Shown: positions 2,623 through 46,879 of the stretch, one piece after another | Layout: every line of letters starts with the position of its first letter | Position numbering within the stretch: position 1 is the first letter of the stretch | Assembly (NCBI GenBank): GCA_902534465.1 | Contig: CACAPU010000001.1 | Coordinates: forward strand, 62,001-126,000 | Direction of reading: 5' to 3' | Origin: an uncultured Pelagibacteraceae bacterium | GTDB lineage: Bacteria; Pseudomonadota; Alphaproteobacteria; Pelagibacterales; Pelagibacteraceae | DNA: 64,000 bases | Position numbers and translations under genes: made by a program | Notes under the pieces: model-generated | What the model saw: the letters and a program-made list of their open reading frames with translations, nothing else | Told to the model about the DNA's origin: nothing | Database searches by the model: none

Positions 2623-3393
2623 ATGAAAAATGATATTCAATCAGTGTCAAAAAAATTAGTAAAGGCTTATAATAGTAACAAACTTATCAATCCAATTCCT
2701 GAAAAATTCTGTAAGAATATAAAATTAGCACATAAACTTAGATTATTATGTGAAAGTAAAATTAAGGATATAAAAGTTGGTTTTAAAGCAGGGGGTACAA
2801 TAATTGCTCTCTTAAAAAAATTAAAAGAAAAAGAGCCATTTCATTCGACTGTATTTGGAAAAAATTTAATCAAATCTGGAGGAAGAGTAAAAATTAATAA
2901 ATATGCTTTGGGTACTGAAGTGGAGGTTTACTATATAATTAAAAAAAAATTTTTTGACTTTAAAGGAAAATTAAATTCAAAAAATATAACAAAGTTTATT
3001 ACTCATATGGGTCCTTGCATTGAGGTTGTTGGATTTAGACAGAAAAAAAAAGGTATTAAATATTTAGGTGACTTATGTAGTGATTTTGGTGTGAATATTA
3101 AATTTATTGTTGGAGCTAAGAAAAAATTTAAAAAAATAAATTTCAGCAATTTAAAAACAAATTTAAAAAATAAAAAAGGATTAAACGTAAACGGTAATAC
3201 AAATACTGTTTATGTAAACCCACTAAATTCTTTAAAATTTGTTCTTAACAAAATAAGAAAAGAGAAAGTTTCTTTAGATAAAGATTTTTATGTATTTACT
3301 GGCTCTACAGTTGGTGTTGTGCCAATTAAAAGCAAAGGTGAATATATAGGCAAAGTAGAGAAACTTGGTACTGTTAGAACAACTATCAATTAA
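2623..3393 (+). CDS. 2-keto-4-pentenoate hydratase / FAH-superfamily-like protein
   Basis: 256 residues resembling the MhpD/hydratase-decarboxylase branch of the FAH superfamily. Supporting pieces are the acidic metal-site segment GTEVEVYY near residue 97, HMGPCIEVVGF near 128 and the C-terminal glycine-rich STVGVVPIKSKG. Such enzymes hydrate or decarboxylate 2-oxo-acids using a divalent metal in the cytoplasm. It is very lysine-rich, and sequence conservation outside these motifs is modest, so the reaction is uncertain. It lies nine bases after the peptidase gene and its stop overlaps the start of the M24 gene, so it is likely in the same operon. Confidence 0.65.
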   Translation: MKNDIQSVSKKLVKAYNSNKLINPIPEKFCKNIKLAHKLRLLCESKIKDIKVGFKAGGTIIALLKKLKEKEPFHSTVFGKNLIKSGGRVKINKYALGTEVEVYYIIKKKFFDFKGKLNSKNITKFITHMGPCIEVVGFRQKKKGIKYLGDLCSDFGVNIKFIVGAKKKFKKINFSNLKTNLKNKKGLNVNGNTNTVYVNPLNSLKFVLNKIRKEKVSLDKDFYVFTGSTVGVVPIKSKGEYIGKVEKLGTVRTTIN

Positions 3394-13996: not shown

Positions 13997-14048
13997 ATTT
14001 TGTTGATAAATATAATTAATAAAACCCATTTTGATATTTATTTTTTTT

Positions 14049-14130
14049 TATAATTTGAAATCAATTTTTTAGAATGATAAATTATGTTTACCATATCTCA
14101 TGGTAAAAAAGAGACCGATATCGCATCGGT
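14049..14130 (+). promoter_or_regulatory. -10 box and tandem hairpin leader of the small basic protein gene
   Basis: TATAAT lies at 14049-14054, but I cannot find a convincing -35 at 16-18 bases. Two perfect inverted repeats follow closely: TTTACCAT/ATGGTAAA at 14087-14107 (5-base loop) and ACCGAT/ATCGGT at 14114-14130 (5-base loop). Both lie ahead of the AAGGAG site at 14157. The spacing and perfection suggest a structured 5' leader that could bind a protein or control translation. An alternative is that the first repeat falls inside a longer coding frame starting at 14084. Confidence 0.5.
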
Positions 14131-14167
14131 TAAAAGCGAGTTTTGGAAAAACAAACAAGGAGAGTGT

Positions 14168-14359
14168 ATGAAAAGAATGCACAGAGTATTAAGTTCGTTT
14201 AGCCGAGGCTCAAAGAACGCTAGGCTAAATCAACTTATGTTTCGAAACTTGAAAACTGTAGAAACTAATGCAAATGGCACAAGTGGATACGTAATCAAAT
14301 CTGGAAAAAATTCAGGAGAAACATTAGGTCACTTAAAGAAAGAGGCTAAAAAGTTTTAG
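14168..14359 (+). CDS. small basic protein of unknown function (63 aa)
   Basis: I start at the ATG at 14168 because AAGGAG precedes it at five bases, whereas the ATG at 14084 in the same frame has no ribosome site and would put the two leader hairpins into coding sequence. The 63-residue product is strongly basic (MKRMHRVLSSFSRGSKNARL at its start, GHLKKEAKKF at its end), with no membrane segment or cysteine. Local base composition is visibly richer in G and C than its neighbours. A further 7-base inverted repeat (TTTAGCC/GGCTAAA, 14198-14229) lies inside the gene. It has its own terminator and looks monocistronic. Nucleic-acid binding is possible from charge alone; I do not recognise the family. 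Confidence 0.6.
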   Translation: MKRMHRVLSSFSRGSKNARLNQLMFRNLKTVETNANGTSGYVIKSGKNSGETLGHLKKEAKKF

Positions 14360-14372
14360 CTTAAAGAATGAG

Positions 14373-14410
14373 ATATGGGGCAATCATATTTATATGCCCC
14401 ATATTTTTTC
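14373..14410 (+). terminator. Rho-independent terminator
   Basis: ATATGGGGCA at 14373-14382 pairs perfectly with TGCCCCATAT at 14395-14404 across a 12-base loop, followed by TTTTTT. It closes the small basic protein gene and also separates it from the convergent cupin gene. It is the strongest terminator in the window. Confidence 0.9.
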
Positions 14411-16635: not shown

Positions 16636-16827
16636 TTATAAATTAATTTTAAAAGTTCTTGCAGATTTTTCTTCAGAAATTTTAAGAATTTTGAATTTAG
16701 ATGTTTTCTCTAATTTTTTACCTTTGTTTGTCACAAATGATTTCATTTTTTTTACTTCTCCCTCAGGCATCTTTCTTGTGTACTTAAGTGTATGTTTTTT
16801 CGAGCCTATAACAAAGATTGTTTTCAT
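16636..16827 (-). CDS. small lysine-rich hypothetical protein (63 aa)
   Basis: 63 residues, about a quarter of them lysine, with no cysteine or membrane segment. It fills the space between the histidine phosphatase and aminotransferase genes, is collinear with both and has codon use like its neighbours, which supports a real gene. No family is recognised. Confidence 0.55.
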   Translation of the reverse strand: MKTIFVIGSKKHTLKYTRKMPEGEVKKMKSFVTNKGKKLEKTSKFKILKISEEKSARTFKINL

Positions 16828-17941: not shown

Positions 17942-19261
17942 TTATTTTCCCCCAACAATCATACCTTCAACATGCATTGTTGGAGAATTTGTAGAATAAT
18001 TAAATTCCAGATCGTCAGCTAGAGTTATATTTTGAAAAATATTATTTAAATTTCCAGCGATTGTTATTTCACTTACCGGATATGAGAATTCACCATTTTC
18101 AATCATTATACCACTTGCACCTACGGAATAATCTCCATTAATAATATTTGTGCCGTGACCGATAGTTTCTTTTATGTAAAGAAGTTTTTTTTCTGATTTT
18201 ATCAACTCACTAAAAGTTTTAGATCCGTTTTCAAAATACAGATTTGTTGTACCGCTTGCTCTACCATTAGACTTTCTGTTTATTTTTTTTCCATTGTAAG
18301 TGTCAATCAAATAATCTTGAAGTATTCCATTTTTAATTAAATCTAAATTAATTATACCTATACCTTCACTGTCAAAATAACGTGATCCATTAGCTTTTTT
18401 GATATCACCACGATCATTAATATTTATTTCAGTGTTGAATACTTTGTGGTTTAATTTGTCCTTTAAAAAAGTAGTGCCTTTTGCTATGGCACTTGATGAA
18501 ATGGCGCTAGCAAAGATTGAAAGAAAGTTTTTTGATATTCTTTTGTCAAATATAAGGCTAATTTTTTCACTTTTAATCTTTTTTGGATTTAATTTTTTCA
18601 CAGCATGATCCGCTGCGATAGATCCAAGCTCTTTTGGTTTTAAAATGTCATTATAAAATCTTTTACTAGTATATTCATAATCTCTTTCCATACTTCCATT
18701 GTTTTTAGAAACAACTTCACAATAAGCTGTAAATTGAGAAGTTTTATATCCATCAGCAAATCCATTTGAATTAGCTAATAAAAAATTTGATTTATTTTCC
18801 CCAAATCCTGAACCATTGGTATTTACAATTTTATTATTCGAAAAAGCCTCATCTTCTGCCTCTTTTATATAATTAATTTTATCTTCATTACTCAAATGAG
18901 TTTCATCGTATAAATCTAAATCTTTCAAACCGCTAAAATGAAGATCTTTATCTGGCAGTGAATTATATTCATCTTCGGGCGTTATCTTCATTGTTTCAAT
19001 ACATCTATCAACTAATTCATTTAAGTTACTCTCTTTAAGGTTTGATGATGCAATTGAGGACTTTTTTTTTCCTAAATATGTAGTAAGGACAACTCCAAGA
19101 TTTTCTGATCTTTCAGAACCATCTAATTTTTTATTCCTAACATTAATATTTTCAGATACAGAACTCTGTACCAAAATACTTGCATCAGTTGAGCCAAGTT
19201 TTTTTGATTTGCTAAGACAAATATCAGCAATTTTTTTTAGATAATCTTGATCTTTAATCAT
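17942..19261 (-). CDS. pmbA: TldE/PmbA subunit of the TldD-TldE metalloprotease
   Basis: 439 residues, standard for PmbA/TldE. It shows GRASGTTNLYFENG, SVGASGIMIENGEFSYPVSE and the closing PTMHVEGMIVGGK, all family-typical. It lacks the HExxxH zinc site, as TldE always does. It forms a heterodimer with TldD that degrades unfolded peptides and matures peptide products in some bacteria. It lies five bases downstream of tldD. Confidence 0.93.
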   Translation of the reverse strand: MIKDQDYLKKIADICLSKSKKLGSTDASILVQSSVSENINVRNKKLDGSERSENLGVVLTTYLGKKKSSIASSNLKESNLNELVDRCIETMKITPEDEYNSLPDKDLHFSGLKDLDLYDETHLSNEDKINYIKEAEDEAFSNNKIVNTNGSGFGENKSNFLLANSNGFADGYKTSQFTAYCEVVSKNNGSMERDYEYTSKRFYNDILKPKELGSIAADHAVKKLNPKKIKSEKISLIFDKRISKNFLSIFASAISSSAIAKGTTFLKDKLNHKVFNTEININDRGDIKKANGSRYFDSEGIGIINLDLIKNGILQDYLIDTYNGKKINRKSNGRASGTTNLYFENGSKTFSELIKSEKKLLYIKETIGHGTNIINGDYSVGASGIMIENGEFSYPVSEITIAGNLNNIFQNITLADDLEFNYSTNSPTMHVEGMIVGGK

Positions 19262-45201: not shown

Positions 45202-46436
45202 TAAATTTGTTCTAAAGGATGATGAGACATTAATTCTAATCCATTTTCGCCAACTAAATATTGTTGTTCTAATTTCACTCCCTCATGACCTCCAACTTCG
45301 CCGATATAACTTTCTAGGGTAATTGTCATATTTTTTTGAAATATACCGCTTCTTTCTCCACCATCAGTCGGATATCTAATTGCTGGCCACTCATCACATA
45401 AACCTATTCCATGAAGCATGACTGAATATCTATTTCCGTAATATTTTTCAGGAAGTATCCATGCCTTTTCAGTAAATTCTCTAAATGATACTCCATCTTT
45501 AATTAATCTTGAATTATAGTCAATCTGCTCAACTGCTGTTGAATAAATTTTTTTTTGATGTTCATTAAATTTATTTCCACAAACAAAAGCTCTAGAAATA
45601 TCTGCACAATATCCATAAGGGCCTACCATATCTGTATCAAAGGATACGATCTCACCATCTTGAATAATCTTATTACTACTTTCTTGCATCCAAGGATTGG
45701 TTCTAGAGCCTGAAGATAATATTCTACACTCTATCCACTCTCCACCATTTTCAATGTTCGTTTTATGTAAAATCGACCATAACTCATCTTCAGTAATTCC
45801 TGATTTCAAATAATCTCTCATTTTAATTATTCCAATATCAGCAACATCTAAAGCTGCTCGCATGCATTTAATTTCTTCAGACGATTTAATAACTCTAGCC
45901 TGTTCAAGTATTTTTTTCGCTTCTAAAACTTGAATTCCTTTTTTATTAAGCTCATTTACGGCTGGACCATTGATTACATCAATTGCGATTTTTTTACTTT
46001 TAAAATAAGAGTTAGATAAATCATTTACTTCATTGACCCATTTTTTAAGTTGCAACTCTGATTGGTCACCATTGCTAAAATAATCCCAAGTAATTGCTGG
46101 TCTTATTTCATCTATTAAATTGAGACCTTTAGATAATATTTCACAGTTAAAATATTCATATAATATTGTTGGACCATCAACAGAGATAAAACAATATCTT
46201 GTAAGATTATGCATATTATAAACACTCATATTCACAGTATCTAATGCATACCTTACATTTACTGGATCAAATAAAATACATGCCTCTATATTATTTTTCT
46301 TTAATTCATTTCTTAATCTATCAAGTCTATAAGATCTAAGTTCGTCAAAATCTATTTCATCTTCTCTTAATCTTTTTTTTGAAATATATTTCTTAATTGG
46401 TTGGTTTTCTGAAAGAATTTTTCTGTTAAACTTCAT
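45201..46436 (-). CDS. M24-fold metallohydrolase/lyase of the DddP-like clade
   Basis: 411 residues with an N-terminal creatinase-type domain (FDPVNVRYALDTVNMSVYNM) and an M24 domain. All metal ligands are intact: FDTDMVGPYGYCADISR (three Asp), HGIGLCDEW (His), ITLESYIGE (Glu) and GVKLEQQYL (Glu). GGEWIECRILSSGSRTNPW and HGIGLCDEWP resemble the DMSP lyase DddP, which cleaves DMSP to acrylate and DMS. However, DddP has close M24 paralogs of unknown activity that share these motifs, and I cannot separate them by eye. It overlaps the kinase gene by one base. Confidence 0.82.
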   Translation of the reverse strand: MKFNRKILSENQPIKKYISKKRLREDEIDFDELRSYRLDRLRNELKKNNIEACILFDPVNVRYALDTVNMSVYNMHNLTRYCFISVDGPTILYEYFNCEILSKGLNLIDEIRPAITWDYFSNGDQSELQLKKWVNEVNDLSNSYFKSKKIAIDVINGPAVNELNKKGIQVLEAKKILEQARVIKSSEEIKCMRAALDVADIGIIKMRDYLKSGITEDELWSILHKTNIENGGEWIECRILSSGSRTNPWMQESSNKIIQDGEIVSFDTDMVGPYGYCADISRAFVCGNKFNEHQKKIYSTAVEQIDYNSRLIKDGVSFREFTEKAWILPEKYYGNRYSVMLHGIGLCDEWPAIRYPTDGGERSGIFQKNMTITLESYIGEVGGHEGVKLEQQYLVGENGLELMSHHPLEQI

Positions 46437-46438
46437 CT

Positions 46439-46879
46439 CTATAACATCTGTACACCAACTCCTGTTTTTGGATAGGTGTATAAATTATAATTTGCACAAA
46501 GCTCATCTCCTGGTTTCAAATCTTTTATTGAAACCATAAAAAAATATTTTGCGTCTGGTTTCTCTCTTAAATTATAATACATGTTTTCTAAATTATCATC
46601 ATTTTCGTTAAATTTTTTTGCTTTTGCGGTAGGATCAATTGGATCACCAAACTTTAATGTAGGTAAAATATTTGATACCATTCTTTGAACTGTAGGATTG
46701 TCAGAATGATTATAAAAACCACCTAATGGAGTTCTTATATATTTATTTTCAAACTGCTCATCTCTTATGTGAGTAATTCCGATAAAAGTATTAGCTTTAA
46801 TTTCTTTGGTTGCGAATAATCCCAAACCTTCGATTGGTGAACTTTTTATTGTTAATGCATCTGGTAAAGGTCTGTACAT
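46439..46879 (-). CDS. SET-domain protein (prokaryotic lysine methyltransferase-like)
   Basis: Start set at the ATG at 46879, after the Rieske stop; 146 residues. The SET domain is clear: SPIEGLGLFATKEIKANTFI near the start, GGFYNHSDNPT (NHSxxPN-type) and DLKPGDELCANYNLY at the end. SET proteins use SAM to methylate lysines; small bacterial ones have largely unknown targets. It is placed between the Rieske oxygenase and the DddP-like gene. Confidence 0.85.
   Translation of the reverse strand: MYRPLPDALTIKSSPIEGLGLFATKEIKANTFIGITHIRDEQFENKYIRTPLGGFYNHSDNPTVQRMVSNILPTLKFGDPIDPTAKAKKFNENDDNLENMYYNLREKPDAKYFFMVSIKDLKPGDELCANYNLYTYPKTGVGVQML

Follow-up and report, generated by a model that had tools for sequence, protein, structure and literature searches.

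Cyanobacteria inactivate their glutamine synthetase (GS) by means of two small basic proteins, IF7 and IF17, and the gene of the latter, gifB, is under the control of a glutamine-I riboswitch (PMC6316151). The aptamer of this class (RF01739) is a three-way junction with a loop E; glutamine-II (the Downstream-peptide RNA, RF01704) is a small RNA with a single pseudoknot and a conserved binding core that activates short ORFs (PMC6698751, PMC6316151) and, in Pelagibacter, the SAM-II/SAM-V riboswitch consists of two pseudoknotted aptamers of different classes placed in tandem (PMC11508383). The leader described here, from an uncultured member of the Pelagibacteraceae, has something in common with each of these systems. 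Like glutamine-II it is a small pseudoknotted RNA in front of a short ORF, but it contains two pseudoknots in tandem and other conserved letters; like SAM-II/SAM-V it is a SAR11 tandem, but its units are alike, its gene is another one and it has no match in Rfam; with glutamine-I it shares the protein family that follows it, as detailed below, but neither sequence nor structure.

The locus lies in a stretch of 64,000 nucleotides, hereafter the window, between a Gfo/Idh/MocA oxidoreductase gene on one side and a convergent cupin gene on the other. Direct inspection of positions 14049–14410 revealed, at the places originally indicated, every feature for which this segment had been singled out, namely inverted repeats at 14087–14107 and 14114–14130, an AAGGAG site, a 63-aa ORF with an internal repeat and a terminator; these and the other parts of the leader and its gene described below are on the + strand. 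A putative promoter (TTGAAA-17-TAAATT with a TG before the −10), recognized by consensus match only, occupies positions 14047–14083, and the transcription start may be placed just before hairpin 1, where conservation begins. The ORF (14168–14359) encodes a basic protein and is preceded by a conserved spacer (14140–14167, 97% identity in relatives) containing the Shine–Dalgarno (SD) sequence AAGGAG (14157–14162); in the MFE fold the GUGU located 5′ of the start codon can pair with GCAC of codons 4–6 to give a start-codon hairpin. The unit ends with an intrinsic terminator at 14373–14409 (ATATGGGGCA...TGCCCCATAT), a 10-bp stem followed by T6, which folds better than its shuffles (z −3.7), as does the leader (z −2.6). 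The terminator stem of a sister clade (L083:5190-5260 and sister loci) carries a long conserved loop (GGGGCACCTGGCAACAGAACGCCCC) unlike that of the window. The 7-bp repeat TTTAGCC...GGCTAAA inside the ORF is kept among window-type relatives, yet no double changes were seen among them, so that it offers no evidence for a structure there. The claim that the GC content exceeds that of the neighbors proved weak: the unit has 35.2% whereas the window as a whole has 31.4%, values as high are reached by 21% of stretches of its size and the adjacent cupin gene reaches 36%.

The two 5′ hairpins of the original prediction are the stems of two tandem H-type pseudoknots, in each of which the loop pairs with a 4-nt tail placed a few nt past its stem, after an A-rich linker. 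In pseudoknot 1 the 8-bp stem TTTACCAT-ATCTC-ATGGTAAA (14087–14107), with the core ACCAT/ATGGT (14090–14094/14100–14104) and the loop ATCTC, presents the loop strand TCTC (14096–14099) to the tail GAGA (14111–14114) across the linker at 14105–14110. In pseudoknot 2 the stem ACCGAT/ATCGGT with loop ATCGC (14114–14130) offers TCGC (14121–14124) to the tail GCGA (14136–14139) across the linker at 14131–14135. A strict version of the tandem-pseudoknot pattern has a single occurrence in the window, where simulation leads one to expect 0.075 per window. Furthermore, the covariation that had been proposed as a check was found not only in the stems, which change on both sides across SAR11 genera, but also in the pseudoknot helices, whose loops and tails change together, in the sister family as well as in SAR11 genera other than that of the window. 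The pairs seen are CTC/GAG, CAC/GTG, CCAC/GTGG, AGTC/GACT and GAGC/GCTC for unit 1 and CGC/GCG, CTAC/GTAG, CGAC/GTCG, GATC/GATC and GCC/GGC for unit 2. Over 26 distinct elements there are 13 loop/tail types in unit 1 and nine in unit 2, a count biased towards structure since the elements were chosen partly by pairing. Each loop forms on average 3.77 (unit 1) or 3.89 (unit 2) of 4 bp with its own partner, vs 2.32 and 2.43 when the partner is taken from another type (permutation p 5e-5, kinship being ignored in this test). In a 15-sequence alignment, set against a control that preserves kinship, 98.9% of the cells of all four helices are paired vs 24–34% for slid structures, and nine of the 18 pairs have changed on both sides. 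Nearly invariant are the AU topping each stem, the C-G opening each loop-tail helix and the AA preceding the tail, and some lineages have an extra hairpin in the linker.

Two other readings of the leader were discarded. An in-frame 91-aa product starting from the ATG at 14084 and running through the hairpins was rejected because close relatives keep this frame open over only ~67 aa and because the leader changes in the manner of a paired RNA. A pairing between loop and SD, suggested by TCTC/GAGA in the window, is not conserved, the other lineages failing to fit when compared by eye; likewise, leader folding and comparison of relatives disclosed no conserved alternative fold that would sequester the SD.

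Conservation is highest in the RNA: among 67 distinct window-type sequences identity amounts to 97% for the 50-nt element, 90% for the ORF and 62% for the 60 nt upstream. A search of Rfam 15 returned zero matches at gathering score in the window, the best sub-threshold score being that of RT-17 (24.5 bits vs 40.4 gathering); this look-alike and RT-18, both far under the gathering score, were taken as chance. Neither RF01739 nor RF01704 matched the leader at gathering score or at E≤10. The nearest of the Pelagibacter motifs of Meyer 2009 (PMC2704228) adjoins a SOUL gene, as the window element does, but by its description, that of a three-stem junction, it is a different RNA. The leader is a candidate riboswitch class absent from Rfam 15.

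The protein is no less real. Purifying selection acts on its ORF (pN/pS 0.19, from 61 distinct sequences), which answers the question of coding signal raised at the outset and, together with the covariation and with the higher conservation of the leader, strongly supports the proposal of a small mRNA that is regulated, its leader being structured; nothing points to the dual-function RNA suggested as an alternative. The family, with the core motif V-x4-ANGT-xGY-xIK-xG-xN-xGK, occurs in 114 of 127 good Pelagibacteraceae genomes, almost always as a single copy, and a class-wide sample of 288 genomes gave three matches, all in Pelagibacter. It also has relatives on more than 400 viral contigs, and 21 of the 22 phage records with a match are Pelagibacter phages. 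The profile PHROG_32989 matches the window protein (E 2.1e-9) and all of 21 family members; this is a phage family whose function is not annotated, but the present data show it to be near-universal in cellular hosts as well. Pfam, NCBIfam and PDB contain no credible match to the family, the calmodulin matches in PDB being due to chance resemblance of DGNGT-like letters, and AlphaFold predicts a helix at residues 2–26 with the remainder at low confidence (pLDDT 68, pTM 0.34). In Pelagibacter phage HTVC008M an unannotated member lies at 18226–18342 (L388:1501-1617), with the DNA end protector gene on one side and baseplate genes on the other.

RNA and protein are coupled in cells and in viruses. 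With the RNA model a single true element is detected in each genome, located at the gene of the 63-aa family in the SAR11 genera g1, g7 and g15 and in g2 and g3 of the sister family; weaker matches in g2 of f2 and in two g1 genomes (E 3e-4 to 8e-3) fall inside coding sequences and are not leaders. The exception is g12, where this RNA is followed by a basic protein of 48 aa that is unrelated to the family (MFYKDFQLLRKAS...KERQSRPRAKENVINPSQKGI; L379, L380, near 3001–3220) and confined to g12 among 13 genomes. When 2.9 million viral contigs were scanned for the RNA pattern, regardless of any protein, 13 proved to have the full tandem element; in 12 of them an ORF of the family begins 21–29 nt 3′ of the element, directly downstream and behind a Shine–Dalgarno, and in the remaining one the sequence ends too early to see. 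This pair of RNA and protein is real, strongly conserved and new to the catalogues searched, and the pseudoknots, the phage homologues and the link to nitrogen metabolism considered below go beyond what had originally been noted.

The link to nitrogen comes from two associations. First, members of this protein family stand immediately behind RF01739 in genus g15 and on nine viral contigs, the riboswitch scoring 40–67 bits; indeed, the only two copies of this riboswitch in 198 Pelagibacterales genomes are both before this family in g15. Two genomes of this genus have the glutamine riboswitch and two the tandem pseudoknots. Proteins that are 63% identical have one leader or the other, and the tree, on which labels were script-assigned with a few wrong, places one leader exchange inside a well-supported clade. 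Second, the family gene is tail-to-tail with glnA at 38 cellular loci, which belong to several genera. These copies are without pseudoknots and follow a row of iscU-like, sufT-like and HesB-like genes (named by inspection). Upstream of them (L149:2900-3010 and similar loci) are TTGCATA...TATGCATA repeats and a −10-like box a few bases 5′ of the start codon, an arrangement that suggests a near-leaderless mRNA subject to a different, DNA-level control.

Few groups of cells in the ocean are as abundant as the SAR11 bacteria. GlnE is absent in 23 of 23 Pelagibacterales genomes tested and PII in 11 of 11 genomes of the window's genus, the controls being positive in both cases; PII is present in g8, g15 and f2 and, of the two g12 genomes, in one. 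Despite the absence of GlnE, glnA retains the tyrosine context of GS (DKDLYxL). The resemblance to the cyanobacterial inhibitors IF7 and IF17 (gifA/gifB, NF052599), which are likewise small, basic and leader-controlled in a host without GlnE-type control, makes a GS inhibitor the most likely role of the SAR11 protein by analogy, but no sequence similarity is detectable: none of 21 family members matches the IF7A model NF052599 at E≤1, although the model is present in the library, and hhalign of the family vs IF7A gives 2.5%. The IF7 sequence used for comparison is not a database record; it scores 124 bits against the IF7A model and for this reason we take it to be close to a real IF7.

Taken as a whole, the reading that we favor, by a modest measure of confidence, is that of a tandem-pseudoknot riboswitch for nitrogen status, most likely sensing glutamine, that controls a small GS-inactivating protein. 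Its parts do not stand equally firm. The RNA is probably a metabolite riboswitch, and probably a new nitrogen-status switch, because elsewhere the same protein is found behind a glutamine sensor or beside glutamine synthetase. That the protein acts on GS, as its glnA neighbor and its association with the glutamine riboswitch suggest, seems on balance the better assumption. Glutamine is the simplest ligand, because its sensor exchanges directly on the same gene, and is put forward tentatively. The most extensive proposal, a third natural class of glutamine riboswitch made of two like pseudoknots and a SAR11-specific family of GS inhibitors forming a circuit that replaces PII/GlnE and has been copied by phages, is more speculative still. 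Mechanistically, RNA polymerase would start at about hairpin 1; in the presence of the metabolite both pseudoknots would form, the ON direction being presumed, and, placed close 5′ of the Shine–Dalgarno, they would set the access of the ribosome by folding and unfolding, i.e., at the level of translation. The 63-aa protein would then lower GS activity when nitrogen is plentiful, as a stand-in for the GlnE adenylylation system that SAR11 is without, and the transcript would end at the 10-bp terminator.

Several observations count against this riboswitch reading: the g12 element serves an unrelated protein, similarity to IF7A was not detected, a glutamine-I or -II core is lacking and no conserved SD-sequestering alternative fold was seen; furthermore, with loop-tail helices that are free to vary, a binding pocket would have few constant nucleotides (AU...AU, C-G, AAG) to draw on. 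The lack of a core in common with either glutamine class fits better with a riboswitch for another metabolite of nitrogen or carbon status (for instance 2-oxoglutarate, glutamate, some amino acid or a nucleotide signal), the protein acting on GS or on a neighboring step. The exchange with RF01739, the coupling of element and gene and the adjacency of glnA would be explained equally by such a switch, which we nonetheless consider unlikely, glutamine being the simplest choice when a glutamine sensor directly takes the place of the leader on this gene. Somewhat less probable is autogenous control, in which the protein, being small and basic and coupled to the element in cells and viruses, would bind the pseudoknots of its own leader and repress its own translation, as ribosomal proteins do. 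It is contradicted by g12, where the same type of RNA precedes an unrelated protein, by close relatives of the protein that use the glutamine riboswitch or, beside glnA, a different upstream region, and by the free variation of the loop-tail letters against a constant protein core. Least probable of all is that the pseudoknots, without any ligand, constitutively shield the 5′ end or help to load ribosomes on a small, highly expressed mRNA for a housekeeping protein unrelated to nitrogen. The element does begin near the expected transcript start and end 21–29 nt ahead of the start codon, but a shield needs less than two pseudoknots whose tertiary helices covary and are kept from genus to genus, and the exchange with a sensor riboswitch also counts against this reading.

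The favored reading puts names to an RNA, a protein and a target that may serve in the control of ammonium assimilation in SAR11, which in the genomes tested is without GlnE and, in the window's genus, without PII. If it is correct, a riboswitch class with an unusual tandem-pseudoknot design would be added to those known, the two like pseudoknots could give a steep, cooperative response, and the presence of both protein and switch in phages would suggest that phages take over their host at nitrogen assimilation, too.

Two further small basic ORFs deserve mention. The glutamine riboswitch of the Methylophilales phage Melnitz EXVC044M has been published as controlling ssrA (PMC9004378); at 46400–46567 (L389:601-768) it is directly followed by a Shine–Dalgarno and an unannotated 32-aa basic ORF (MTLYQQWCYLKAQKEYRRRQKILMYFRIRLKG), which is more likely to be its target than ssrA. 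In the window itself a second 63-aa basic ORF (MKTIFVIGSKKHTLKYTRKM...) lies nearby, on the − strand at 16636–16827.
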